In this document: positions 5,695-57,865 of the stretch, piece by piece
Layout of the letters: the number at the start of each line of letters is the position of its first letter
Position numbering within the stretch: the first letter of the stretch is position 1
IMG/VR virus record: IMGVR_UViG_3300030101_004515
Location: 1 to 57,865 of that record
Reading direction: 5' to 3' (one strand)
Length of the DNA stretch: 57,865 nucleotides
Source: a virus
Program-made: the position numbers and the translations under genes
The notes under the pieces: model-generated
The model's input: the letters and a program-made list of their open reading frames with translations, nothing else
The model's database searches: none
Told to the model about the DNA's origin: nothing

Positions 5695-6015
5695 ATGGCA
5701 GGAATTTTAAAAGGAAACCTAGATGTTACCAAGATACCAAAGGATAAAATCTATAATGGTAAAAAGGGTAAATACATTCCCGTTGTTATTGCAATCAACA
5801 ACGAAGTGGATCAGTTTGGTCATAACGGTTCAGTAACCGTAGACCAATCAAAAGAAGAGCGCGACGCAAAAGAGCCTAAGGTTTATTTAGGAAACATAAA
5901 AGTCGTATGGACAGACGGTGAAGCAATGCCCGCTGCACAACAGCAGGGACAAGCTCAGCCATCTCCAGTTTCTCAAACGGCTGCTGCGCCGACAGATGAT
6001 GATCTTCCGTTCTAA
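5695..6015 (+). CDS. single-stranded DNA-binding protein-like, 106 aa
   Basis: Short beta-rich N-terminal domain (residues 1-78), then a Gln/Pro/Ala linker (79-98) and the terminal acidic-hydrophobic tip 'DDDLPF'. That tip is the hallmark of bacterial SSB proteins, used to recruit replication and repair enzymes. The N-terminal part is not an obvious canonical OB-fold by eye, but the layout and the position between exonuclease and primase-helicase support an SSB role. It would coat ssDNA during replication and recombination. Confidence 0.7.
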   Translation: MAGILKGNLDVTKIPKDKIYNGKKGKYIPVVIAINNEVDQFGHNGSVTVDQSKEERDAKEPKVYLGNIKVVWTDGEAMPAAQQQGQAQPSPVSQTAAAPTDDDLPF

Positions 6016-6095
6016 TACGAGATCAACACGAAGCAGCTATGATATAACAATCGACAAACAATAATGTTAGTCATAATATTTATTTATTCATTTTT

Positions 6096-7820
6096 ATGTT
6101 CAATACGGTAGAGGTTAATGGTTTTTATGTGGATAAGTTCAACCAGTATAATCTACCGGTAGGTAAAGCGGAGAGTGTTTGTCCTCTCTGCTCTCACCTG
6201 CGTAAGCCAGAAAACAGAAAAAAGAAATGTGCAAGCTTAGACTGGGAAAGAGGTTTAGGTACTTGCCATAATTGCAATAAAACATTCCAGCTACATACTT
6301 ACCAAAGAAAAGGTGGTTCGGATATAGAATACAAAAGACCAGCTTACGATACAAAAACGCATAAGCCCGTGCAAAGCAAGGTTCTTAAATGGTTTGAATC
6401 GAGAGGTATATCTAAAAAAACAGTTGAGGATTTAAATATTTCAGAGGGACCAGAGTATATGCCGCAAACTGGAAAGGAAGAGAACACTATTAAGTTTAAT
6501 TATATGATAGGCGACCAGCTTATCAATATTAAATACAGAGACGCGAGAAAAAACTTTAAGCTTTACAAAGGTGCAGAAAAAATATTTTATAATATTAATA
6601 GTATTGTTGGTTACAATTCTTGTATTATAGTTGAAGGCGAAATGGATGTATGTGCTATACACGAAGCCGGTATTTCTAACGTAATATCAGTCCCAAACGG
6701 CGCCACACTAAACACAAACAACCTTGATTACTTAGATAATTGTATAGATTACTTTGCTGATAAAGAAAAAATTATAATAGCTGTTGATAATGATGCAGCT
6801 GGTATAGCCTTAAAACAAGAATTAATAAGAAGATTAGGCTCAGAGGTTTGTTATACTGTTGATTATGAAGAGCATAAAGATGCAAATGACGTATTGTTAG
6901 AAAGCCCTGAAAAGCTGAAATCAATTATCGATAAGGCTTTGCCTGTGCCTTTAGAAAACGTAACGACATTTAAAGACTTAGAAGATGATTTACAAGACTT
7001 TGTTAAAAACGGTTTTAAGCCGGGATTTCAGATTGGGATTAATAACTTTGATAATATCTTCAGCACTTACACTGGTCAGTTTATTACTGTTACTGGTATA
7101 CCTAGCAGCGGTAAAAGTGATTTCGTTGATCAAATGGTAATAGGCTATAATATAGGATATGATTGGAAAATAGGTTTTGCCTCTCCTGAAAACGCCCCCA
7201 CTTATTTACATGCTCATAAAATAATGCGTAAAATATGGGGCGGTATGCCTTCGCATAATGATATTGGTACTGAAAGATGGCAAGAAATATCAAATCATAT
7301 AAACAATAATTATTATTTTATAGATTTAGAAGTTCCATCACTTGAAGCAGTACTACGTAAGGGTGCCGAGCTTGTAAAGCGTAAAGGAATTAAGTGTTTA
7401 GTAATAGATCCTTTTAATAAAATAAGAGACACGAATGCTAATAGTATGGACGTAAACACATATACTTTAGAATATTTAACAAAAATAGAACAGTTTGCCA
7501 AACGTTATGATGTATTGGTAATTATAGTAGCGCATCCTACTAAAATGTATAAAGACAGTTCAGGTAAAATTGAAGAGCCTACAATGTATAACATAAAAGG
7601 AGGAGGCGAGTGGTATGACGCAAGCTATCACGGGCTGCTGGTACATAGAGATTATGAAAATAAAACAACAAAAGTTAAGGTATTAAAAGTAAAGTTTCAA
7701 AATTTAGGAGAAAACGGAGCTGAGTGTTTCTTTACGTGGGAACCGAAAAGTGGTTCTTATATACCATATATCAACGAAGAAGAAGAAGAAGTAGGGCCTT
7801 TACCGTGGGAAAATGGATAG
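6096..7820 (+). CDS. primase-helicase (Toprim plus DnaB-like helicase), 574 aa
   Basis: A T7 gp4/Twinkle-style replicative enzyme that makes primers and unwinds DNA. The N-terminal zinc-binding part has Cys pairs C29/C32 and C57/C60. The Toprim domain shows 'VEGEMD' (E180) and 'AVDNDAAG' (D231/D233). The RecA-type helicase domain begins near residue 310, with Walker A 'GIPSSGKS' at 334-341 and a Walker B-like 'KCLVIDPFNK' further on. At 574 residues the length suits the family. It follows the SSB gene after about 80 bases and overlaps the Vsr gene by 8 bases. It is the only clear replication enzyme here; the polymerase must be outside the window. Confidence 0.9.
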   Translation: MFNTVEVNGFYVDKFNQYNLPVGKAESVCPLCSHLRKPENRKKKCASLDWERGLGTCHNCNKTFQLHTYQRKGGSDIEYKRPAYDTKTHKPVQSKVLKWFESRGISKKTVEDLNISEGPEYMPQTGKEENTIKFNYMIGDQLINIKYRDARKNFKLYKGAEKIFYNINSIVGYNSCIIVEGEMDVCAIHEAGISNVISVPNGATLNTNNLDYLDNCIDYFADKEKIIIAVDNDAAGIALKQELIRRLGSEVCYTVDYEEHKDANDVLLESPEKLKSIIDKALPVPLENVTTFKDLEDDLQDFVKNGFKPGFQIGINNFDNIFSTYTGQFITVTGIPSSGKSDFVDQMVIGYNIGYDWKIGFASPENAPTYLHAHKIMRKIWGGMPSHNDIGTERWQEISNHINNNYYFIDLEVPSLEAVLRKGAELVKRKGIKCLVIDPFNKIRDTNANSMDVNTYTLEYLTKIEQFAKRYDVLVIIVAHPTKMYKDSSGKIEEPTMYNIKGGGEWYDASYHGLLVHRDYENKTTKVKVLKVKFQNLGENGAECFFTWEPKSGSYIPYINEEEEEVGPLPWENG

Positions 7821-8265
7821 AGTAAGCAAGGAAACAAGGTCTAAGATTATGCGAAGCATAAAAGGCAAAGACACAAAGATTGAAGCGCGTCTTGCTAAAG
7901 CGCTGTGGCACAAAGGATTACGTTACCGTAAAAACAACAAGAAGATAAAAGGAAAACCTGATATTTGTTTTGCTAGTAAAAAGTTAGCTATATTTGTTGA
8001 TGGTGAGTTTTGGCACGGACACGAATGGGAAGAGAGAAAAAAGAAACTGAAGACGAACAGGGAGTTTTGGATTAGTAAGATAGAAAGAAACATGGAGAGA
8101 GATAAGGAAACAAACCAGCATCTTATAAATGAAGGCTGGTCGGTTATGAGGTTTTGGGGGAAAGATATAAACGAAAGGCTGGATCACTGCGTAGAAAAGA
8201 TTTGCGAAGCGCATGCCGGTATACATAATAAACAGACAATACAAATTCATGATGGGAAGTTATAG
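7813..8265 (+). CDS. vsr: Vsr-type (very short patch repair) mismatch endonuclease, 150 aa
   Basis: Vsr nicks next to the T in T:G mismatches produced by deamination of 5-methylcytosine. The family signature is clear: 'RSKIMRSIKGKDTKIE' at the N terminus with E24, 'GKPDICF' with the metal-binding D50, 'FVDGEFWHGH' with H68, then 'FWISKIERNMERD' and 'LINEGWSVMRFW'. Length is near normal (E. coli Vsr is about 155 aa). Oddly, the Cys residues that bind structural zinc in E. coli Vsr are missing: Glu65 stands where Cys66 would be, and the 'WEC' cysteine after the last strand is Gly. It overlaps the primase-helicase by 8 bases and lies one small gene upstream of the dCMP-specific-looking ThyA relative. 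Confidence 0.85.
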   Translation: MDRVSKETRSKIMRSIKGKDTKIEARLAKALWHKGLRYRKNNKKIKGKPDICFASKKLAIFVDGEFWHGHEWEERKKKLKTNREFWISKIERNMERDKETNQHLINEGWSVMRFWGKDINERLDHCVEKICEAHAGIHNKQTIQIHDGKL

Positions 8266-8509
8266 CCCAACAAGACCAGAAATTAAAGCTAACGATTACT
8301 GTATTAGAAATAATATACGTATCTTTCCTGTGTGCGTACAGAATCACAAGCTTTGGAAGGTTGGCATAAACTTTGGCCCTTACAAAAAAGGCGAGAAACC
8401 TAACTTATCGCCAGACTCGTATGGACCGGGTGAAATACAAAAACAAATTTATAACGCAAGTGTTTATTACTATAATAAATACGGGGTTAATACGAAAGCA
8501 AAAGGATAA
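8249..8509 (+). CDS. conserved small phage protein, 86 aa
   Basis: Basic protein containing 'GSYSPTRPEIKANDYCI' and a 'WKVGINFGPYKKG' beta segment. Similar small proteins of unknown function seem familiar from marine phages. The frame is open from 8213, but ATG at 8249 or 8252 is preferred, giving a short overlap with the end of vsr. It is sandwiched between vsr and the thymidylate-synthase relative, so a role in the same module is possible. No function assigned. Confidence 0.55.
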   Translation: MMGSYSPTRPEIKANDYCIRNNIRIFPVCVQNHKLWKVGINFGPYKKGEKPNLSPDSYGPGEIQKQIYNASVYYYNKYGVNTKAKG

Positions 8510-8516
8510 TAACAAT

Positions 8517-9320
8517 ATGATTTACGAAAAGAATTATAGAGCGCTTATAACAAGAATTGTTAAAGACGGAAACTATAGAGAAGACAGAACAGGCGTAGGA
8601 ACAAAATCTTTATTTCATCAAAGATTAAATGTTAATATAAGCGCAACAAAAAAATTAGGTCAAGAAAAAATAGAAGGCGATAACTTTCCAATTTTAAACG
8701 GAAAGCATATGAGTCAAAACATATTTGACACAGAGTTTGAGTGGTTTATGAACGGCGAAACAAATATTCAAAGATTTAAAGATAATAATGTAACCATATG
8801 GGACAACTGGGCGACACCTGAGGGCGATTTAGGCCCTGTTTATGGCTATCAACTAAGAAATTTTAATGGACAAGGAATTGATCAATTAAAACAATTAATA
8901 GACGGCATAAATAAAGATAGGCACGGAAGACGTCATATAATTAGTTTGTGGAACCCCGCGATGATACAAGATATGGCATTACCGCCTTGCTATTTATATT
9001 TCCAATTTTATATAAACCACGGAATGATAAGCATGTTTGTGGTTCAGAGATCCGGTGATATGTTTTTAGGTGTTCCATATGATGTTTGTTTGTTTGCTAA
9101 AATATTATTATATGTAGCTTCTGAAACAAATACAGTTCCAAAAAACATTGACATATCTATTATAGACGCGCATATATATTTAAATCATTTTGATGCAGTA
9201 AAAGAATATATGAACAACACGGATTATAAAGATGGGGCAAAGTTTACATATCAAAGCGGAAGGCTTACGTTAAAAAATTATAAGCCGGGACCAAAAATTA
9301 AAGCGCCGGTAGCAGTATGA
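8517..9320 (+). CDS. thymidylate-synthase-family enzyme, predicted dCMP-specific (methylase or hydroxymethylase), 267 aa
   Basis: Full-length ThyA-type enzyme aligning with E. coli ThyA end to end. It keeps the folate/dUMP framework: R24 ('EDRTGVGT'), E73, W95 ('VTIWD'), nucleophile C158 ('PPCY'), 'QRSGD', 'DAHIY' (H219, Y221) and the C terminus 'IKAPVAV'. The key difference is D189 (codon 9081-9083). Counting from the catalytic Cys, it falls exactly on E. coli Asn177, which selects dUMP. In T4 dCMP hydroxymethylase this position is Asp, and Asn-to-Asp ThyA mutants favour dCMP. The residue after the catalytic Cys is Tyr rather than His. Retention of W95 hints at full reduction to a methyl group, but hydroxymethylation cannot be excluded. 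The ATG at 8517 is chosen because the upstream frame overlaps another gene. The last bases overlap the MazG gene. Confidence 0.85.
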   Translation: MIYEKNYRALITRIVKDGNYREDRTGVGTKSLFHQRLNVNISATKKLGQEKIEGDNFPILNGKHMSQNIFDTEFEWFMNGETNIQRFKDNNVTIWDNWATPEGDLGPVYGYQLRNFNGQGIDQLKQLIDGINKDRHGRRHIISLWNPAMIQDMALPPCYLYFQFYINHGMISMFVVQRSGDMFLGVPYDVCLFAKILLYVASETNTVPKNIDISIIDAHIYLNHFDAVKEYMNNTDYKDGAKFTYQSGRLTLKNYKPGPKIKAPVAV

Positions 9321-10072
9321 AATATTACCTGTATCACATTCCCGGTAAAAAAATTGGCGTCACAACCAATGTACTGAAACGCGTAACTAAAGTACAAGGT
9401 TTTAAATCAGGCGAGTATGAGATTCTACTTAGCTCTGACGATATAAACTATATATCAGATAAAGAAAGAGAACTGCAAAAAAAGTTCGGATACAAGGTGG
9501 ACATAACACCATACAATCAATTACTTATGAGAAAAAAAGAAATGAAAATAAACGTTACAGAGCAGACCACTACGTTTCCTTGTCCTCGTGTTCATTTAGC
9601 AGACGCGCTATTAGAAAACGACGGGATGATTTGGGAAACAACTTTAGGTCAGTTTGAAAACACGGAGCTAACAAGAACGTGGATATTAGCTAATGCTAAA
9701 AAGTCTATGTTCAATAACGAAAAATGTTTTATATACAATAAAGCATACTATGAAGAATTTCTATTCCAAACCAACGGAAGAAATATCTTTGATAGAATAC
9801 GCGCGTGGGCAAAAGAAAGAAACATTTACACGCACGGTGATATTAAAACGCAGCTACTTAAACTTTACGAAGAGGCCGGCGAATTGTCTCAGGCTGTTTT
9901 AAAAGAAGACAAGCAGGAAACTGTAGACGCCATAGGCGATTGTGTTGTTGTTTTAACTAACTTATCTGAGCACTTAGGCGTTAATATAGAAGAATGTATT
10001 GAACACGCTTACGATCAGATTAAGGCAAGAAAAGGTAAAATGGTAAACGGAACATTTGTAAAAGATGAGTAA
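9317..10072 (+). CDS. fusion of a GIY-YIG-like N-terminal module and a MazG-type NTP pyrophosphohydrolase, 251 aa
   Basis: Residues 1-75 resemble a degenerate GIY-YIG-type module: 'YYLYHI', 'KKIGVTTN', Arg22 and the helix 'DKERELQKKFGY'. The middle (75-170) is unrecognised. Residues about 180-245 are a MazG-like all-alpha pyrophosphohydrolase, with 'EEAGELSQ' for metal binding, then 'ETVDAIGDCVVVL' and a helical tail. MazG enzymes cleave (d)NTPs to monophosphates; the T4 dCTPase gp56 belongs to a related dimeric dUTPase family. Start overlap (ATGA) with the dCMP-type enzyme suggests the two act together, perhaps supplying dCMP. Substrate is inferred from context only; catalytic competence of the N-terminal module is doubtful. 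Confidence 0.65.
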   Translation: MKYYLYHIPGKKIGVTTNVLKRVTKVQGFKSGEYEILLSSDDINYISDKERELQKKFGYKVDITPYNQLLMRKKEMKINVTEQTTTFPCPRVHLADALLENDGMIWETTLGQFENTELTRTWILANAKKSMFNNEKCFIYNKAYYEEFLFQTNGRNIFDRIRAWAKERNIYTHGDIKTQLLKLYEEAGELSQAVLKEDKQETVDAIGDCVVVLTNLSEHLGVNIEECIEHAYDQIKARKGKMVNGTFVKDE

Positions 10073-10316
10073 AAAAGAATTTGATTTTAGAGACCCTATC
10101 ATACAAAAAGTTGTAGAAAAGTTTATATCAAGATCTGACGTAGGCTATAGCAAATATAAAGTAACGCTAGAACAAGACAGCAAATCTATTAACGAGTGGC
10201 TTAACAATATACAAGAAGAGCTAATGGATGCTGTAAACTATATTGAAAAGCTTAAATCTGTTTTGGCTGACGAGCTTCAAGAAGTTTTGCTTAAGAACTA
10301 TCATGAGAAAGATTAG
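10065..10316 (+). CDS. small MazG-fold-like phage protein, 83 aa
   Basis: Contains 'RSDVGYSKYKVTL' and the helix 'NNIQEELMDAVNYIEKL', whose EExxD arrangement is the metal-binding pattern of all-alpha NTP pyrophosphohydrolases. Proteins with this signature are common in tailed phages and sometimes annotated as nucleotide pyrophosphohydrolases. It overlaps the upstream MazG fusion by 8 bases and the downstream nuclease by 14 bases. A role in the dNTP pool is plausible but not shown. Confidence 0.55.
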   Translation: MSKKEFDFRDPIIQKVVEKFISRSDVGYSKYKVTLEQDSKSINEWLNNIQEELMDAVNYIEKLKSVLADELQEVLLKNYHEKD

Positions 10317-10785
10317 ACGCAGCAAGAAGCGCGGCCCCGTAGTATCAAAAAAAGTAACATATGACGGAATTAATTTTGCTTCAGGTTTAGAAAAATATAT
10401 GTATATTGCATTAAAGCAAAACGGTATAAAAGCTGTTTACGAAAACCGAACTTTTGTTTTAATTCCTGGATTTTACTTTGATAGCCAAAGCTATGAAAGA
10501 ACAGCGAACGCTAAGGGCGAATATAAGGATAGGGGTATGAAAAGTATTCAACCGATCAAGTATACGCCTGATTTTGAGGGAGAGGGATTTATAATAGAAT
10601 GTAAGGGTAGAGCTAACGAAACGTTTTCTATGCGGTGGAAATTGTTTAAAAAACACATAACAGAACAACTTCCGGGTATTGTACTTTACAAGCCCCAAAA
10701 CCAAAAAGAATGCGACAAAACAGTGGAGCTAATATTAGAGTCTCAAAAGCGATTGCGAGACAAAAATATAGAGAAAGACAAATAA
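10303..10785 (+). CDS. PD-(D/E)XK nuclease (DUF1064/resolvase-like), 160 aa
   Basis: A compact nuclease with the fold signature E30 (in 'SGLEKYMY'), D90 ('YTPDFEG') and E99/K101 ('IIECKGR'). This pattern fits DUF1064 and T7 endonuclease I-like phage enzymes that cut branched DNA or help degrade host DNA. The N terminus is highly basic (RKIRRSKKRG). The ATG at 10303 is preferred to the upstream in-frame start at 10243, which would overlap the previous gene by more than 70 bases. Confidence 0.7.
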   Translation: MRKIRRSKKRGPVVSKKVTYDGINFASGLEKYMYIALKQNGIKAVYENRTFVLIPGFYFDSQSYERTANAKGEYKDRGMKSIQPIKYTPDFEGEGFIIECKGRANETFSMRWKLFKKHITEQLPGIVLYKPQNQKECDKTVELILESQKRLRDKNIEKDK

Positions 10786-10883
10786 ATAAGTACGTTAACT
10801 GGGCGATAGAGAGCAGGGGATATTTAAAATGGAAAGAGATTGAGGCTATTCACGATAAGTATAACGTAAAAGTATATGGCTAG
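10710..10883 (+). CDS. small hypothetical protein, 57 aa
   Basis: A 57-residue basic protein starting inside the nuclease gene (76-base overlap) and overlapping the next tiny gene by 8 bases. Its C-terminal half has a plausible folded composition with several Trp/Tyr. The long overlap weakens the case. Without it, 10786-10875 would be an unexplained gap in an otherwise packed operon. Confidence 0.4.
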   Translation: MRQNSGANIRVSKAIARQKYRERQINKYVNWAIESRGYLKWKEIEAIHDKYNVKVYG

Positions 10884-11013
10884 AAGAAACATTACATACA
10901 CATATATAGAGCGACCTAAAAAAAGAAGGCCGGGCGTTCACGCTAAAACAAAAACCAGCGGGCTGAAGTCTAGCAAGTATTACAAGAAAAAATATAGGGG
11001 GCAGGGAAGATGA
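10876..11013 (+). CDS. small basic phage protein, 45 aa
   Basis: Very basic 45-residue protein with 'KKRRPGVHAKTKTS' and a 'KKYRGQGR' C terminus, a composition I associate with a recurrent tiny marine-phage protein. It overlaps its neighbours on both sides by 4-8 bases. Probably binds nucleic acid or the ribosome by charge; function unknown. Confidence 0.6.
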   Translation: MARRNITYTYIERPKKRRPGVHAKTKTSGLKSSKYYKKKYRGQGR

Positions 11014-11165
11014 CAATTAAAAAGAACAACGTACATTGGGAGATTCATATAGGCTATTATCCGGGCATACTGTTTGGGATTAGAAGTTACAAAATGAAAG
11101 GATACGATGATCACGTGTTATATTTGCCTCTTGTAGATTTTTGTTTAACCATATATAAAAAGTAA
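11010..11165 (+). CDS. conserved small phage protein, 51 aa
   Basis: 51-residue protein with the stretch 'EIHIGYYPGILFGIR' followed by a hydrophobic C-terminal part 'HVLYLPLVDFCLTIY'. Similar tiny proteins seem familiar from tailed phages; function unknown. Starts in a 4-base overlap and ends one base before the DnaA-like gene. Confidence 0.55.
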   Translation: MTIKKNNVHWEIHIGYYPGILFGIRSYKMKGYDDHVLYLPLVDFCLTIYKK

Positions 11166-11166
11166 C

Positions 11167-11619
11167 ATGGAATTAACCCAAATTAAAAACATTCTAATAG
11201 ATTTATTTGACAATGATTTTAGTAAGCCAAATAGGCAAAGGCACAATGTATATCAGCGCGCGGTTTATTTCAGGCTATGCCGAGATCTTACACCTTATGC
11301 CCTAACAGATATTGGCGCAGTAATTAATAAGGACCACGCCTCCGTACTCCATGGGCTAAAACTGTTTAAAAACTTTAAGATTTGGGGAGAGGATATATAT
11401 CTTTCGATTTATAAGCAGGCTAGACTAAAGCTAAAGCAAAAGTATGGGTTTGCTAACCCGCACGCAAACATGACAGTTGAAGAGAGATACAGGGAACTTC
11501 TTATGCACCATATAATTCTAAAAGAAAAATATCACAAAACAAAGAAAGAGTTAGAAAAAATTCGTAATTTTAATGTATCTGATTTTCAAACAGTTAGTAA
11601 TGGGATATACAATAGATGA
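11167..11619 (+). CDS. stand-alone DnaA domain IV-like DNA-binding protein, 150 aa
   Basis: Residues about 20-75 match the DnaA C-terminal DNA-binding domain: a helix with 'RAVYFRLCRDLTPYAL', then the signature-like 'IGAVINKDHASVLHGLK' corresponding to the bacterial 'DHTTVLHA' helix-turn-helix. The AAA+ domain is absent, and the remaining 75 residues are a charged helical tail ending in 'YHKTKKELEKI'. It may bind DnaA boxes to recruit or block the host initiator, or act on the phage origin. It overlaps the next gene by 20 bases. Confidence 0.7.
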   Translation: MELTQIKNILIDLFDNDFSKPNRQRHNVYQRAVYFRLCRDLTPYALTDIGAVINKDHASVLHGLKLFKNFKIWGEDIYLSIYKQARLKLKQKYGFANPHANMTVEERYRELLMHHIILKEKYHKTKKELEKIRNFNVSDFQTVSNGIYNR

Positions 11620-11830
11620 TATAGAAAAGATAGCGGCTTTTAAGTCTTGGTCAAAAAAAAGAAAGATCGATACACTTCTTGAAATAGACGCGGATTTATA
11701 TTGTAACTTAGGGATGGAGTCAAGCAGAAGCGAAGTAGAAGCCATTAAAGTGCAGTCAAGAAAAATATACAGGCTTATAAAAACAATAGACGAATACGAT
11801 GGTAAAATGCTATTAAGAAACGAACGATGA
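11600..11830 (+). CDS. hypothetical helical protein, 76 aa
   Basis: Unrecognised charged helical protein ('DIEKIAAFKSWSKKRKID'). The ATG at 11600 is preferred over an in-frame start at 11573 because it reduces overlap with the DnaA-like gene. It ends in an ATGA-type overlap with the lipoprotein gene. No catalytic motif. Confidence 0.5.
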   Translation: MGYTIDDIEKIAAFKSWSKKRKIDTLLEIDADLYCNLGMESSRSEVEAIKVQSRKIYRLIKTIDEYDGKMLLRNER

Positions 11831-12018
11831 AGTTTATTGACTACGTTATGTGTTTTTTTATTATATTGTTGTTTATAACAGTGGCTTCATGCAGTAAGGA
11901 AGAGGATAGGTGTGCACAGTATGACTTACAAGATGAGGAACTTTTAAATGAGTGTGTTGATGGTGTTTGCACACAGATTGTTCAGGTGACAACAACATGT
12001 ATAACTTATGAACAATGA
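11827..12018 (+). CDS. small lipoprotein, 63 aa
   Basis: A short N terminus, a hydrophobic stretch (residues 7-20) and the lipobox 'VASC' followed by an acidic 'SKEED' indicate a signal-peptidase II lipoprotein of about 42 mature residues. The mature part has four Cys (two near 'ECVDGVC', one near 'TTTC') that could form disulfides in the periplasm. In an early/middle block such a protein could act in superinfection exclusion, or it could be a spanin. Overlaps the oxygenase gene by 4 bases. Confidence 0.7.
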   Translation: MKFIDYVMCFFIILLFITVASCSKEEDRCAQYDLQDEELLNECVDGVCTQIVQVTTTCITYEQ

Positions 12019-12581
12019 TTTATATAAAAGATAATTTTTTACCGTTAAATCTTTATAACCAATTAATTAGCTTTTGTGATAAATTTACAGAGATCAAATA
12101 TCCCGATAAATCTTTTTGGGTTAAAGAATTACCTAAAGAGTTTGAATATTATATGATCAGTGAATTAGAAAAATTAGAAAATAAAAAAATAAATAATATA
12201 TTAGCTTTTGCAAGAGAAGCTAAGCAAAATCAAGATAACGATTGGCGCATACATAATGACACTATAATTGAAGGGCAACAACCTGATAGAGCTGTCGTAT
12301 TGTTTGTAAAAGCAAAAGAGGATAAATTAAACGGAACAGCTTTTTGGGAGCATAAAGAGTATGGGCATACGTATATTAAATCAGATAACGAAGAGTTTAA
12401 TCGTATGCTATTAGAAGACGCAAATGATGAATCAAAATGGAAATTAAATTCTGTAATAGGGTATAAGGACAACAGATTACTGTCTTACCCGTGTAATTAT
12501 TTCCATAGTAAATATCCTAATGAATACATGGACCAAAGAATAGTAGTGGTAATGTTTTATAAAATAGATGAAAGAGAGTAA
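12015..12581 (+). CDS. 2OG-Fe(II) oxygenase-like protein, 188 aa
   Basis: The double-stranded beta-helix signature is visible: H80-x-D82 in 'RIHNDT', the distal iron ligand H164 in 'NYFHSKYP', and R175 in 'QRIVVVMFY' for 2-oxoglutarate. Between them lie strands such as 'RAVVLFVKA' and 'AFWEHKEYGH'. These residues define the 2-oxoglutarate/Fe(II) dioxygenase superfamily (prolyl-4-hydroxylase-like), often found in marine phages with unknown substrates. It overlaps the lipoprotein gene upstream by 4 bases. Substrate unknown; protein or nucleobase hydroxylation are both possible. Confidence 0.7.
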   Translation: MIYIKDNFLPLNLYNQLISFCDKFTEIKYPDKSFWVKELPKEFEYYMISELEKLENKKINNILAFAREAKQNQDNDWRIHNDTIIEGQQPDRAVVLFVKAKEDKLNGTAFWEHKEYGHTYIKSDNEEFNRMLLEDANDESKWKLNSVIGYKDNRLLSYPCNYFHSKYPNEYMDQRIVVVMFYKIDERE

Positions 12582-12771
12582 ATTAATATTGATGGCAAAA
12601 AACGTTTTGCGCTTAGAAGAAACAGTAGACACGCTCATTAGAGAACTTATGCGCACGCAGAATATACAGATGGGTATTTTAGAGACAATGAAGAGAATGC
12701 CCGACTATCAGGAGGCTTTGGATAAATTGAAAAAAGATAATGCTGAAGCTGAAAAAGAAAAGAATACTTAA
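12568..12771 (+). CDS. small coiled-coil protein, 67 aa
   Basis: Charged helical protein with a heptad-like pattern ('LEETVDTLIRELMRTQ'). Start at 12568 overlaps the oxygenase gene by 14 bases; an ATG at 12592 is an alternative. It is the last gene of the + block and is followed by the terminator at 12798-12822. Function unknown. Confidence 0.55.
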   Translation: MKESKLILMAKNVLRLEETVDTLIRELMRTQNIQMGILETMKRMPDYQEALDKLKKDNAEAEKEKNT

Positions 12772-12987
12772 TTAGTTTTTTTTCATATTTGTTTTTAGGG
12801 GTACAGTTTTGTGCCCCTTTTTATTTATACTGTCTTTTAGCGCCTGCTGCTCATACCAATACTTTGATGGCCATTTCTTATCAAGAAAGTCTACAACAGT
12901 GCTTTTTATCGTATAACAAGAAGCAAAGGTTAAAACAAGCAAGGCAAGTAAAAGTCTTTTAGATAATGCTATACACTGCTTTTCCAT
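12772..12987 (-). CDS. small lipoprotein, possible outer-membrane spanin, 71 aa
   Basis: Signal with basic start (SKR), hydrophobic core 'LLLALLVLTF' and lipobox 'FASC' near residue 24, so a signal-peptidase II lipoprotein. It overlaps the start of nothing else but shares 29 bases with the end of the M15 endolysin gene, and is the last gene of the late block. Lipoprotein next to endolysin is the usual place of an outer-membrane spanin, which fuses outer and inner membranes in the last step of lysis; no partner i-spanin is obvious adjacent. Its last codons contain the + strand terminator. Confidence 0.6.
   Translation of the reverse strand: MEKQCIALSKRLLLALLVLTFASCYTIKSTVVDFLDKKWPSKYWYEQQALKDSINKKGHKTVPLKTNMKKN
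12798..12822 (+). terminator. intrinsic terminator of the + strand block
   Basis: Seven-base stem GGGGTAC/GTGCCCC (one G-T pair) with a six-base loop, followed directly by a five-T run on the + strand. It sits 26 bases after the last + gene. The opposite strand lacks a T run, so it is directional. It lies within the coding 3' part of the convergent lipoprotein gene at 12772-12987. Confidence 0.75.
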
Positions 12988-13420
12988 TTACTCTTTCTGC
13001 TTTTAAACAACGATTTCTGTTTTGATCATCCGATACGTAACTTACGTGAACCCAATCAGGATTTGCGTCATTACCGAACTCCCATATTAGCTGATCAAAA
13101 TTTAAGTTTTCTTTTATGTAATTATACATTTCGGCGTTTGTTTTATGCCCAAACGTATCGTCAATATCTATGGCTCTGCCTTCGCAGTGTTGAGATTTTG
13201 AACTTCCGCCTATAGCGGTATTTAAATCTGGTGACCTAAAAAATGAATTAATTTTTATTGGTCCATTAACCCATTCACGTAACGGTTCAAATATATTTAA
13301 CGCTACCGCGTTCATATTTGCTAGCTGATAATCATTTGGTATGTTATCTATGTTTCGCCTTGTTGCTGTATTAGAATGAGTCCCTTCTTTATATGATATG
13401 TGATTACTTATATTTTTCAT
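12959..13420 (-). CDS. endolysin, M15-family peptidase (D-Ala-D-Ala carboxypeptidase/L-Ala-D-Glu type), 153 aa
   Basis: Zinc peptidase that cuts peptidoglycan stem peptides. Motifs: 'SFFRSPDLN' (residues 59-67), zinc ligands H78 and D85 in 'SQHCEGRAIDID', and 'DWVHVSY' with H125 as the third ligand. These are the M15A/M15_3 ligands, as in many phage lysins. There is no signal peptide, so export through holin lesions is expected (a holin candidate lies at 52595-53053). It is followed by the lipoprotein and preceded by the giant ejection protein. Confidence 0.85.
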   Translation of the reverse strand: MKNISNHISYKEGTHSNTATRRNIDNIPNDYQLANMNAVALNIFEPLREWVNGPIKINSFFRSPDLNTAIGGSSKSQHCEGRAIDIDDTFGHKTNAEMYNYIKENLNFDQLIWEFGNDANPDWVHVSYVSDDQNRNRCLKAERVNGKAVYSII

Positions 13421-13431
13421 GATTAAATTTA

Positions 13432-16400
13432 TTAGTCTTCAATTCCTAGCTCCCAGCCTGACCACCCTAAGAAAAGCGCTATTCTTGTCCAAGCACTTAA
13501 ATCTTCCCGTGATGCGTCTGCTAGGTTTTCTATTTTTCTTTGCAGCCTGTCCGCTGGTATGTTGGCTATGGCAAGCGCGTTTATAGCCGCTTCTACTGAA
13601 GGAGGAATATTGCTTTCGTATTTGCCCGCTTCAATAATCGCCTTCAACTTCCTTACCTTGTGATCTATTGGAGGTGCAATATCTGTAGTAGCTAAAAGAA
13701 CGTTTGACCAGTCTTTGAAAAATTCATTTTCTTTTTGCTGTTCTTTATAGTATGCAATACCAGCATTTTTTAGCATTGAAATAAGAGCTCCCGAATATCC
13801 AAGCCCTCTTAATACAGAGTCAGCCATACCGTTAACTATACGTTCTTCTTTCTTGTCAATTTTACTCTGTCTTATTTCTTTTGCTCTTCTAGTAAGTTTT
13901 CTGCCTTGGTATTCATCTTCCTCGCTAAAGTCTAATGCAAAATACGCGCTTTGTAAAGTATTAAATATTATATTCTGTACAGCCATATAATACGTTATCT
14001 TAGACACATTTGTTTTTACATCTCCCCTGCCATTAACTAAATCACTTATTGCTCGTTTAGTTAATCTTGTATATTGGAAAGGTGTATTAGCGAACGCAAA
14101 TACTACACGGCCAAAATTATTCGCTTGTACGTTTGAAATACGCGCGGGATCTGATGATTGTTGAGACTCATTTGAAATTTGTCTCCAGTCTTCATAAGAT
14201 TTTTTTTCTGCTTGTTCTTGAGTAAATCCTTTTTTAACATAACTATTAATTCTGTTTCTATAAAACGCAGAACCTCCAGAAGCAATAGCAACGCTATCCA
14301 TAATTTGCGTAGGTAAAAACCCAATTTTTAACATGTGCGCAATCACAGCTTTTACAGGATTTTTGCTTTTTGCGGCCTCAGCTATTTCCGCTTCTTGTAC
14401 ATTGATTTTTAATCCTTGTCTTCTATTAGTCAAGTAATCCGAATTCATTAAAAACATAAAGTCTTTTGCAAACTGTTTTGGGTTGGCTAATGCTTTTGCT
14501 ACCATTAAAGGGTTGTTGTCACTCCAATTTAAATAGTTTATAGCAGAAATAGATTGAAGCGTTGCGGAACGCATGTTAAAAGACATTATAGTACCAACCG
14601 AACCATTTATAAAGTCTTGTGTTATATTAGCCGCGTCGCTATTAGTAGGCTTTCTATTTACTCCTGACTTCATTCTACCAATAACCATTTCTAAATTTTT
14701 AACATAACTTGGCCCAAAAGCGGCAGTAAGTTTTGCTTTGTTTTTATCATTAAAAATAAGATCAATATTGTGTTGCCATTTTTTTAAATACTTTGGTCTT
14801 TTGTTTTGATTTAAAGTTTGTGCAAAATCACTTCCTATTTTTCCCGCTTCCCAGTTTTCTTCAGGTTTAGGATAACCATCTGTTTTGTTAGCAGCCATCA
14901 AACCAAAAGCAAAACTTCTAAGCTCTTTGTTGTCTGCTACAATTTTTGATAACTTATCTGCTCTCTTTTTTGTTATACCGGGAATGTCGTAATTTGACTG
15001 TTGCCAAACAAAAACACGAACAGCATCTTCTATTGTAAAGTTTTTCACTCCTTCTTCCGTAAGGTTTTCCCTTAATTTAAAAGGTGCTTTTTTAATTCTA
15101 GCTTTGATTTGTCTGTAAGCATTAAACATAGATCTTCTATCCGTTTCTAAATCGGATATACCTTGTGAATATGTGTCAAGTAGGTTTTCTTTAAGAAACT
15201 TTAAGTCTTTGTTTCCCTGCTCTCCTTTGCCTGCTATTTTTTGTATCAAACCATAAAAATCTTCTGCGCTGTACGGTAAAAATATATTCCAGTCATTGCC
15301 ATAAAAAAACTTTCTTTCTGTTTCTTTTCCTAGCCTTCTTGCTAAAGCTAAATCTTTTGCGCTCTTTATTTCTTTTGCTTTGACATTCTTTCTATCAATC
15401 ATGTCTGCCAGCTCTGCTGGTTTACTTCTTGTTTTTGAAAACTTAATATATAATTTATTATTAGCTTCGTCTATTGCGCTTGCATCAAACACCTGCGCAT
15501 TAAGACCCTTATTTAAATCATAAGTATCACCCTCAGTTAAAGCTATTCCGCTTTCAATAGGAATAATATCACCCTCGTCTAATACATTTTGAAACCTAGA
15601 AGTAACGTAATTTTGATTTGGCAAACCAAATTTTCCATTTATAGCGTCCATACTCGTAGAACTTTTTATATCTCCATGAATTTTATCTACTATAAAAACT
15701 CCATTCGTAGCAAACATTTTGTCTATGGCTCTTTCTAAAATTCTTCTTCCTTTTCTGCCTCCCGTTATATATGCTGCTAAAAAGTTATCGCCATCCTGCT
15801 CTAACATAAAATCATTAGCAAGCTTTTCTATTTGTTTTGCATGCTCAGCATAAGGCTCCGTAATATTTTTTTCTACATGTGTTATAGCTGCAGATTCTCT
15901 CATAGGAGTGTAAGTTGTGCCCCCCTTAAACATCATAGATTGAAACCTGTTTGCAAATTTCATAGCCATTTGTTCATTACCTGTCCCTCTATAGCTTTCT
16001 ACAAAGTCATAAAGCGATAGCATAATTCTTTTATACTGGGGTCTTACTATAGATGTTACTTCATTATTATGAGCATTTATTTCAGTAAGATCGCCGTCAG
16101 TTGCTTTTGCTGCAATTTTGTCTATACCTTTTCTTTTAATTTGTTCCGTGCCAGCAAAGGTTGATAACAATTTTCTTGTTCTTTCAACACCATCAATTTG
16201 TCCAAGATCTGAATTTATATTCAATTTAGTGTTTAAGTTATTATCAAAATCTGAAGCAAGCTCTTCGCCTACCATTTGCTTGAACACATTTTGTCTCAAT
16301 GGGCCCGTACGCAAATCAGCGTCTGTTAAATACGCGTTTGCAAATTCAAATAAAATATTTTCATACTCGTCATTTCTTAATTTTGATTTTTTTGCAGACG

Positions 16401-42317: not shown

Positions 42318-42589
42318 TACTTAGATTTTTTTTCTGCAAAGCCCGAAAACGAGTTCTCTTTTGCTTGCACCGGCTTGTTTTCAAGCAAGCTCTTTTCGGT
42401 TTCAATTCTGTTAAGAATCTCGAAAGCGTCGAATATTGCAAGCTTCTTTGTAGCGGCCGCGTTCTTTAATCTATCAGCGGAAACGTCGTCTTCTGTTTGC
42501 ACTATAGCCTCTTTGGCGACCTTTACTAACTCGTCAACGGCTCTATAGCCAGCTTGGATTATACTCTCTTTCTTTTTCTTTATATCCAT
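42317..42589 (-). CDS. putative terminase small subunit, 90 aa
   Basis: Small helical protein, immediately upstream of the large terminase, with 'AGYRAVDELVKVAKEAI' and 'ADRLKNAAATKKLAIFDAF'. Small terminases are short, helical and DNA-recognising, and this gene order is standard. Evidence is position, size and helical pattern; the HTH is not clear. Confidence 0.55.
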   Translation of the reverse strand: MDIKKKKESIIQAGYRAVDELVKVAKEAIVQTEDDVSADRLKNAAATKKLAIFDAFEILNRIETEKSLLENKPVQAKENSFSGFAEKKSK

Positions 42590-43130
42590 AACGTATAGAT
42601 ATTTCGTTGTTAATTACCCTGTACAGCCTTTCGCCTTCTATAATAAACTCGTATTCGCTGTCCGGAGTAAAGCCTATTTTTTCATTTACCTTAAAATCAC
42701 CAGTATCGTCTACGTACTTAATAATTCCTATCAATGACATCTCCTTGCTTGTTGAAAACTCATTATCGTTGACCAGCGGTTTTACGAAACTGAACCCGCG
42801 ATTCGCCTTCCATACGCCATCGCGCTTGTAAAGAAATATTTGCTCAAGCTCGCAGAAGTACAGATTATCTTTGAAATAACTTTTACTATTGCGCTCAATG
42901 CCTCTAACGTCATGCCAACGACGAAATATATTATGATGCACATAAAGAACATCACCTCTGTTAATATGTGTATCACGTGCTATAGGTGTTTCGTAAACTA
43001 TTGCTTCACGACTTACAAACTTGTGATCGGATATATCGGTGTTTAATATCAGCTCCTTGTCTCCGACCTTTTTAGTATTGTCGTATCTTTCTTTTTTAGG
43101 TTTGATTAAAAAGGAATATATCGGTTTCAT
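42543..43130 (-). CDS. conserved phage protein upstream of terminase, 195 aa
   Basis: Unrecognised function. Segments 'GDKELILNTDISDHKFV' and 'GDVLYVHHNIFRRW' with 'YFCELEQIFLYK' look beta-rich. The pattern 'GDVLYVHHN' is loosely like beta strands of GroES-fold proteins, but I do not claim a co-chaperonin. It overlaps the small terminase candidate by 47 bases and the next gene by one base. Confidence 0.5.
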   Translation of the reverse strand: MKPIYSFLIKPKKERYDNTKKVGDKELILNTDISDHKFVSREAIVYETPIARDTHINRGDVLYVHHNIFRRWHDVRGIERNSKSYFKDNLYFCELEQIFLYKRDGVWKANRGFSFVKPLVNDNEFSTSKEMSLIGIIKYVDDTGDFKVNEKIGFTPDSEYEFIIEGERLYRVINNEISIRYGYKEKEREYNPSWL

Positions 43131-56739: not shown

Positions 56740-56997
56740 TTAACCGACTAACACAACATCTTGTTGTCTTATAACTTGGTATAAGTTATTGTCGTATTCT
56801 ATTCCGTGTCCCGCTCTCCTGTCGTAATAAATTATGTCATTTTCCTTGACTCCTTCTGTCATATTGCCTACAGATACAATTTTCGCCTTTAAGTACCTAA
56901 CGTCATCTACGTGTTGGTCCATTATAAGTAAACCCTCTTCTTTCTTAGGTTCTTCTTTGATCGGCTCAATTATAATAAAGTTATTGATTGCCTTCAT
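56740..56997 (-). CDS. groES: co-chaperonin GroES-like, 85 aa
   Basis: Caps GroEL during folding. Matches GroES: N-terminal strand 'IIIEPIKEEPKKEEGLL', 'KAKIVSVGNMTEGVKENDI', 'YYDRRAGHGIEYDNNLYQVI' and the end 'QQDVVLVG'. Slightly short (E. coli GroES is 97 aa), mainly in the mobile loop. It starts inside the end of groEL (17-base overlap), so the operon order is groEL-groES, the reverse of the common bacterial order. Confidence 0.85.
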   Translation of the reverse strand: MKAINNFIIIEPIKEEPKKEEGLLIMDQHVDDVRYLKAKIVSVGNMTEGVKENDIIYYDRRAGHGIEYDNNLYQVIRQQDVVLVG

Positions 56998-57865
56998 AAT
57001 CTCTTACATTTGAAATTATACAATCTGCAGATATAATTGTTGTAGCCACGCTAACTGCATTTACCAATGCTTTCTTAGTTACCATTACCGGATCTATAAT
57101 ACCGGCCTTTATCATATTTACCTCTTTTCCCGTTATAACATTTATACCGTGTCCTTTTTTACGTGTGTCATTAAAGTCTATGGGATTTACGGTATTATGT
57201 TCTATTCCGGCGTTTTTTAATATCGTACTATAAGGAGATTCAACCGCTTTTAATAATATTAGCTCGGCTTCGGTATCCATCTTTACTTTTTGACTTGCGT
57301 CTAATAAAGCTATTCCTCCACCCGGCACTATGCCTTCTTTAATTGCGGCTTTAACCGCATAGATAGCGTCTTCAACTCTATCCTTTTTTTCTTTTAACTC
57401 GATTTTACTATTTGCGCCAACTTTCAGTATTGCTACAGCGCCAGATAACATGGCCAGTCTTTGTTCGAGCTTGGATTTTATAAACGGGTTTTTCTCCGTT
57501 TTAATTTTTTTATTTACTAGGTCTATTCTTTCTTTTGCTTCATCTGGCATTTTATCTATAGTAATTACCGTTGATGTTGCATCTGTTACTGCTTTTTCAG
57601 CTTGACCTAAAACATCGGGATTGATTAAATCTAAATCGTCTCCCAATTCTTCATTGATAACTTTCGCTCCGGTTATTGTGGCTAGATCCTGCATCGTATC
57701 CATTTTGGTAGCCCCAAAACCAGGTGTATCAATAATGTTCACTTTAATGTTACCTTTTACCTTGTTCATTAAAAGTGCAGCCATCGGTTGCTGATCCATG
57801 CCGGCCACAATCAAAAGACTGCGCTTTTCCCTGATAACATGCTCAAGTACACTTTGTATTTTTCT
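56981..57865 (-). CDS. groEL: chaperonin GroEL-like, partial (C-terminal 294 residues)
   Basis: Refolds proteins inside its double ring using ATP. Truncated by the window edge; the visible frame is open to base 57865 (first full codon ends there) and reads 'KIQSVLEHVI' before the apical-domain 'NIIDTPGFGATK'. Later come 'DRVEDAIYAVKAAI' with the conserved ATPase Asp of the equatorial domain and 'IVPGGGIALLD'. The C terminus ends 'SNVRDYEGNQ' without the usual Gly-Gly-Met repeat tail. It overlaps groES by 17 bases. Phage chaperonin could aid capsid or tail folding. Confidence 0.88.
   Translation of the reverse strand, partial: RKIQSVLEHVIREKRSLLIVAGMDQQPMAALLMNKVKGNIKVNIIDTPGFGATKMDTMQDLATITGAKVINEELGDDLDLINPDVLGQAEKAVTDATSTVITIDKMPDEAKERIDLVNKKIKTEKNPFIKSKLEQRLAMLSGAVAILKVGANSKIELKEKKDRVEDAIYAVKAAIKEGIVPGGGIALLDASQKVKMDTEAELILLKAVESPYSTILKNAGIEHNTVNPIDFNDTRKKGHGINVITGKEVNMIKAGIIDPVMVTKKALVNAVSVATTIISADCIISNVRDYEGNQ

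Follow-up and report, generated by a model that had tools for sequence, protein, structure and literature searches.

A conserved ThyA-MazG gene pair predicted to modify cytosine, with a Vsr-type endonuclease inserted beside it in a single phage genome

Does a Vsr-type mismatch endonuclease that lies beside a relative of thymidylate synthase (TS, ThyA) and a MazG-type protein belong with them to one system, in which cytosine is modified and its deamination repaired? The question is raised by the IMG/VR record IMGVR_UViG_3300030101_004515, a linear viral record of 57,865 bp whose whole length is referred to here as the window. A first-pass annotation had proposed such a module from Vsr to position 10316, and the gene order, positions and short overlaps of that stretch were all found as it had placed them. 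We found that the ThyA-type enzyme and the MazG protein very probably constitute a real, conserved cytosine-modification module, which represents a new clade of an already known kind of cytosine-modification pathway. The fuller reading, that the conserved module makes 5-methyl-deoxycytidine monophosphate (5-methyl-dCMP) and is joined in this single genome by a Vsr mismatch nickase, carries about equal weight for and against. The two genes of the pair are as follows.

8517..9320, + strand: ThyA-fold enzyme, predicted dCMP methylase (PF00303, E=1e-70; residue tables; tree)
9317..10072, + strand: fusion of a GIY-YIG-like N-terminus with a MazG/PRA-PH domain, predicted dCTPase (Pfam, PHROG_1992, Foldseek)

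The ThyA relative was confirmed to bear Asp at the position of residue 177 of E. coli TS, with Tyr at position 147, and it keeps the TS-type residues W80, W83, V93, Y94, L143, C146 and D169. An Asn177-to-Asp change gives TS the activity of a dCMP methylase, and of all positions, 177 and 147 are the most strongly associated with phage contigs that carry modified cytosine (PMC8670742). Two scans of viral contigs, one with the ThyA protein and one with its family alignment, gave 105 loci of this clade; some contigs are counted twice among them, and because each viral scan contributed up to its best 80 loci, all such counts are samples. Asp177 and Tyr147 were found together in 104 of the 105 loci, and E58, W80, W83, V93, Y94, L143, C146 and D169 were invariant. 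The single Asn177/His147 enzyme was that of locus L225. In the phylogenetic tree, the clade of the window enzyme (support 100/100) was sister to ordinary TS and apart from the T4-like and XP12-like enzymes, with long branches that leave the deepest joins unsure. The XP12-type enzymes, for which Stenotrophomonas phage AXL1 served as the representative, formed a clade separate from that of the window enzyme (support 100/100 and 100/99).

The MazG domain of the neighbouring protein, at about residues 155-250, matched PF01503 (5.7e-6) and PF03819 (1.7e-5) above the cut-offs. The protein also matched PHROG_1992 (4.7e-37), the profile of its family alignment matched 1vmg (1.1e-6), and its predicted structure matched MazG folds by Foldseek with probability 1.00 (among them phage S-2L MazG and RS21-C6 with dm5CTP). 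The metal motif EEAGE...DAIGD, of the EExxE...D/ExxD type, is invariant. Thus, of the GIY-like/MazG fusion originally described, the MazG part is borne out by Pfam and predicted fold; the GIY-like part is weaker, as the predicted b-b-a-b-a order of the N-terminus matches the GIY-YIG topology without any profile or PDB fold match.

The MazG fusion adjoined ThyA in 103 of the 105 loci, on the same strand and usually within a few nucleotides. The two remaining loci were L216, at a contig edge, and L225, the locus of the Asn177/His147 enzyme, which serves as a natural control for the link between Asp177 and MazG. The proposed coupling of a dCMP-type ThyA to MazG therefore passed the co-occurrence check, and this agrees with the MetaGPA study, which found TS and PRA-PH domains together in phage contigs with modified cytosine (PMC8670742). 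A further 13 contigs were found through the MazG fusion, and in these the slot between the primase and one and the same MazG fusion was occupied by ThyA-fold enzymes of other kinds, either T4-like, with 'DTPC' and 'SNYG' (L040, L042, L044, L047, L048 and L050, among others), or TS-like (L039 and L043); all of those read had Asp177. The ThyA-fold enzyme has thus been swapped at this position. MazG persists while its dCMP-modifying neighbour is exchanged, and its constant association with Asp177 enzymes is most naturally read to mean that it would act as a dCTPase for the dCMP branch. The swap of methylase and hydroxymethylase types at one locus, with a constant MazG partner, offers a natural experiment on MazG function. 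In the related podovirus L065 (MW202828), an annotated flavin adenine dinucleotide-dependent thymidylate synthase (ThyX, 8958-9632) replaces the ThyA-type enzyme. In L042, an inserted protein (1880-2635), by eye resembling a prolyl-hydroxylase-type oxygenase, separates the hydroxymethylase-like enzyme from the MazG fusion.

What the enzyme makes is predicted from its residues. Since the residues of TS hydride transfer are kept and the hydroxymethylase signature is absent, it is most likely a dCMP methylase giving 5-methyl-dCMP; a methylase rather than a hydroxymethylase appears likely. Judged from sequence, this methylase most likely arose from ordinary TS, independently of the T4-type and XP12-type enzymes. 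More phages of this sort could be found by using the Asp177/Tyr147 pair as a simple marker.

The position of Vsr relative to this pair is defined by three features.

6096..7820, + strand: DNA primase/helicase with Toprim and DnaB_C domains (Pfam/PHROG matches), left neighbour of Vsr
7813..8265, + strand: Vsr-family mismatch endonuclease of the zinc-less subtype (PF03852, E=1.1e-31), a recent insertion
7821..8212, + strand: inserted segment of ~390 bp (alignment with five relatives; limits estimated by eye)

The identity of the Vsr-type endonuclease was upheld, with a PF03852 match above the curated cut-off and a match to E. coli Vsr (1cw0) at 3e-20. The protein has 150 residues and only Vsr/DUF559-type domains. 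In the alignment to E. coli Vsr, the active site (E24-D50-D63-H68-D97) and the aromatic wedge (F66-W67-W86) are intact, with the numbering shifted by one relative to the E. coli protein (E25/D51/H64/H69/D97 and F67/W68/W86). The functional Neisseria Vsr proteins V.NgoAXIII and V.Nme18VIP likewise have Asp where E. coli Vsr has His64, and the T:G mismatches on which they act may lie in degenerate sequence contexts (PMC12907096). The window Vsr would thus be of a relaxed-context type, which would suit modification beyond a single motif.

The gene is a recent insertion specific to this genome, because the junction of the close relative L002 has only a short spacer where Vsr lies in the window, and because Vsr is absent from the relatives. 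L002 has primase, ThyA and MazG proteins 97-98% identical to those of the window (primase 98% by tblastn) and no Vsr; 15 nt separate its primase stop codon from the following small open reading frame (ORF), where the window has ~390 bp of Vsr coding sequence instead. The ATG of Vsr falls within the final codons of primase, and the 17 residues at the C-terminus of Vsr are encoded by what was ancestrally the start region of the small ORF. The G+C content at third codon positions (GC3) of Vsr differs from that of primase and thyA. A profile search found Vsr in none of the 39 related whole records, and it was absent from the flanks of all 105 ThyA-clade loci. The idea that Vsr is a conserved member of the operon was consequently rejected, and with it the first-pass proposal that it belongs to the module. 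No close cellular donor was found, the best matches being 58-63% in Firmicutes and 53% in Parapedobacter.

A function for Vsr beside the pair can nevertheless be proposed. The MazG domain would hydrolyse dCTP to dCMP, by which ordinary dCTP would be removed and substrate supplied. The Asp177/Tyr147 ThyA enzyme is predicted from its residues to use methylene-tetrahydrofolate and the TS hydride-transfer route to convert dCMP, at C5, into 5-methyl-dCMP. Host kinases would then raise this to 5-methyl-dCTP, placing 5-methylcytosine (5mC) at many or all phage cytosines, and the DNA would resist restriction. Vsr would nick the T:G mismatches left by deaminated 5mC, in many contexts, for short-patch repair. 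Such repair of deaminated 5mC is plausible, and 5mC as the product suits Vsr better than T4-type hydroxymethylation; whether Vsr does act in 5mC repair we consider evenly poised. The functional link draws on this enzyme logic, on the intact active site of relaxed type and on one independent co-occurrence, in the records L107 and L108.

Among 50 Vsr records searched whole, a ThyA-family protein was present in only these two, which are mutually related and of a lineage unrelated to the window. Their ThyA has Asp177, and no C5-methyltransferase was found in the records, of 55 kb and 100 kb. In L108 (record G046, 5916-15564), Vsr lies between a DnaB-type helicase and a Toprim primase, followed by dUTPase_2 and a P-loop kinase, with ThyA ~7 kb further on; dUTPase_2, present in both records, is also the Pfam match of T4 gp56. 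A relative, L263, has ThyA and dUTPase_2 and no Vsr. None of the 46 Vsr records with a C5-methyltransferase had ThyA. Fisher tests of Vsr against ThyA and methyltransferase gave p=0.06 with the window left out and L107/L108 collapsed to one, on tiny numbers; the full version includes the window, which is the discovery case. Together, these data suggest that phages with an Asp-type ThyA have gained deamination-repair-type genes sporadically and independently of one another; most of these phages do without such a gene. No HhH-GPD glycosylase standing in for Vsr was found in the relatives of the window.

Several observations weigh against the proposed function. Its absence from the relatives shows that the module does not need Vsr, and Vsr was also absent from the XP12-type phages (AXL1, AAT-1 and viral relatives). 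Viral relatives of the window Vsr normally stand beside C5-methyltransferases: one lay within 8 kb in 71 of 80 viral contigs, in 55 of these within 1.5 kb, with a median gap between the two genes of 63 bp, so that the window Vsr may be a stray. No C5-methyltransferase (PF00145) was found in the whole window record or in its 39 relatives. The usual genetic link is therefore lacking in the window, although it is the usual setting of Vsr and not a strict definition, and Caulobacter VsrA is likewise unlinked to a C5-methyltransferase (PMC12907096). Profile comparison brought out no close relationship between the MazG domain and T4 gp56 or AXL1 gp64 that would point to its substrate. No dedicated 5-methyl-dCMP kinase was recognised in the window record. 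Dihydrofolate reductase (DHFR), looked for because TS-type methylation consumes tetrahydrofolate, was found neither there nor in the relatives. The window also shows no CpG depletion and no general avoidance of palindromes as a footprint of modification.

In the best-surviving alternative, ThyA and MazG modify cytosine, and Vsr is an unrelated passenger, a restriction-modification stray or a chance insertion with no role. The confinement of Vsr to this genome among its relatives, a C-terminal tail encoded by ancestral DNA, the deviating GC3 and the usual company of its viral relatives, which includes restriction genes as well as C5-methyltransferases, are all as expected of a passenger. An intact active site and mismatch wedge are less so, and no C5-methyltransferase arrived with Vsr. 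Moreover, L107 and L108 independently combine Vsr with a gp56-type nucleoside triphosphatase (NTPase) and an Asp177 ThyA, and Vsr records that do have a C5-methyltransferase were without ThyA. We regard a passenger Vsr as possible but doubtful.

A dCMP hydroxymethylase is a second alternative. The DNA would then contain 5-hydroxymethylcytosine (5hmC) or a decorated derivative, and Vsr would face 5-hydroxymethyluracil:G or T:G. Asp177 is the residue of T4 gp42 as well, and in relatives the identical slot holds a T4-type enzyme. Hydroxylation by T4 gp42, however, has been tied to an Asp at the third residue ahead of the catalytic Cys, a Ser at the second residue ahead of the catalytic Tyr and the absence of Trp83, the solvent gate of TS (PMC6400193). 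The window clade has Leu in place of that Asp, Pro in place of the Ser before Tyr94, and Trp83 itself; the features are present in T4 gp42 and, with Met for Trp83, in L040, L042 and L048. As none of the three signature features is present and the window enzyme stands beside ordinary TS in the tree, identity as a T4-type hydroxymethylase was rejected, and a hydroxymethylase of any kind is unlikely.

Vsr could also be a stand-alone homing-type endonuclease, comparable to the EDxHD family and I-Bth0305I, that spreads into primase-thyA junctions. Its clean insertion at an intergenic junction in one genome would fit, as would a weak similarity to I-Bth0305I (3r3p, E=0.22). The protein is far more similar to true Vsr, did not test as an EDxHD member and lacks the extra DNA-binding module described for phage homing enzymes, and no copies were found at the primase-thyA junction elsewhere in IMG/VR, which makes homing very improbable. 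Least probable of all is an ordinary or dual-specificity TS with a house-cleaning MazG and no base modification, for although the closest outgroup in the tree is ordinary TS and all TS catalytic residues except 147 and 177 are kept, Asp177 and Tyr147 are invariant over a deep clade and tied to MazG, and Asp177 recurs in every other ThyA-type enzyme of the slot.

Returning to the dCMP methylase with Vsr, we tentatively propose that this lineage independently turned TS into a dCMP methylase and may use the nucleotide pool to substitute 5mC for cytosine, and that one member recruited a relaxed-specificity Vsr against deamination across the whole genome, with a parallel in L107/L108. If true, very-short-patch repair would here operate independently of any DNA methyltransferase. 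Dozens of environmental phage contigs would then represent a second way in which evolution has arrived at phage DNA with 5mC throughout, and the window would be a testable case of how a 5mC genome copes with extra C-to-T mutation.

Three conserved genes flank or adjoin the pair.

8213..8509, + strand: small conserved protein, function unassigned (orthologues in most related contigs)
10065..10316, + strand: small helical protein with an invariant QEELMDA motif (orthologue alignment), conserved 3' of the MazG fusion
10303..10785, + strand: DUF1064/Holliday-junction-resolvase-like nuclease (PF06356 1.7e-9, phrog_190 4.8e-12), conserved right neighbour

Vsr overlaps the end of primase (7820) by 8 nt, the 8213-8509 ORF overlaps Vsr by 53 nt, the MazG fusion overlaps ThyA by 4 nt (ATGA) and the 10065-10316 gene overlaps the MazG fusion by 8 nt. 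The 8213-8509 protein lies nearly always directly 5' of the ThyA-type enzyme, whichever type is present, with orthologues in L002, L007, L039, L040, L042, L044 and L047. It is predicted to fold as a-b-b-b-a (mean model confidence, pLDDT, 81); the model gave no significant match in a fold search, no known family was found, and the protein may serve the modification module as an accessory or DNA/RNA-binding factor. The 10065-10316 protein had been taken for a second MazG-fold protein, which was not borne out: it had no Pfam match, no significant PDB match and only PHROG matches of unknown function, and it is MazG-like at most by its QEELMDA motif. The 10303-10785 nuclease probably has a role in recombination rather than modification.

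Elsewhere in the record, the terminase protein matched that of a Manatee Spring podovirus at 61% and those of Flavobacterium elemoviruses at 44%, and because of these matches the phage probably belongs to a Flavobacteriia-type podovirus group. A GroES-like co-chaperonin lies at 42543-43130, and close to the end of the record is the C-terminal half of a GroEL (56981-57814); related elemoviruses and MW202828 likewise have annotated chaperonin genes. A DUF6445-like protein (12015-12581) has an HND...H...R pattern, by eye that of a 2-oxoglutarate-Fe(II) oxygenase, and its homologues are present, too, in relatives whose enzyme is of the hydroxymethylase type. Given the predicted 5mC DNA, such an oxygenase is of interest.

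The combination of Vsr, Asp-type ThyA and MazG was not found in the searchable literature, and each half is known. The first-pass statement that no described system combines these parts roughly holds for the whole combination, but phage modules of Vsr with a C5-methyltransferase and of ThyA with a pyrophosphohydrolase have been described. In Xanthomonas phage XP12 and its kin, a dCMP methylase operates and all C is replaced by 5mC. The XP12 type, as seen in AXL1, resembles the window in having an Asp177-type ThyA directly beside a PRA-PH/MazG-type pyrophosphohydrolase, with 5-methyl-dCMP as the predicted product. The NTPase and the XP12-type ThyA were paired in AXL1 and in 8/8 viral relatives, with Asp177 where read (AXL1 and AAT-1), which makes this pairing an independent instance of NTPase-ThyA coupling. 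The XP12-type ThyA differs in its clade, in having Pro instead of Tyr at 147 and in lacking Trp83, and AXL1 adds a dCMP deaminase and DHFR and is without Vsr. In AXL1, L259 and L260 an HhH-GPD gene adjoins the pair, and the six further viral relatives have none there; XP12 by report carries such a base-excision-type gene, and the authors of the AXL1 study found no canonical active site in the AXL1 protein.

T4 gp42 and gp56 share with the window the removal of dCTP, the C5 modification of dCMP and an Asp at the discriminating position. They differ in the three hydroxymethylation features of gp42, and gp56 shows no detectable homology to the window MazG protein beyond the superfamily. The MetaGPA contigs (eLife 2021, PMC8670742) have the TS changes at 177 and 147 and a neighbouring PRA-PH domain, like the window; what that study characterised is carbamoylated 5hmC, and its main text does not mention Vsr.

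The window Vsr shares its fold and catalytic residues with E. coli Vsr (the Dcm partner), V.NgoAXIII and Caulobacter VsrA. Like the Neisseria and Caulobacter enzymes, it has Asp in the position of His64. Its identity to E. coli Vsr is 39% over 115 aligned residues, and unlike that protein it has no zinc cysteines and no partner methyltransferase. A phage-borne Vsr is also found in phages KL3 and AH2, whose 'DNA protection and repair' modules combine Vsr, a C5-methyltransferase and an endonuclease, and where Vsr has been put forward as the enzyme that repairs deaminated 5mC of the phage DNA (PMC3483164). In KL3 and AH2 the 5mC comes from a sequence-specific C5-methyltransferase, whereas in the window, which has no such gene, its predicted source is the nucleotide pool.

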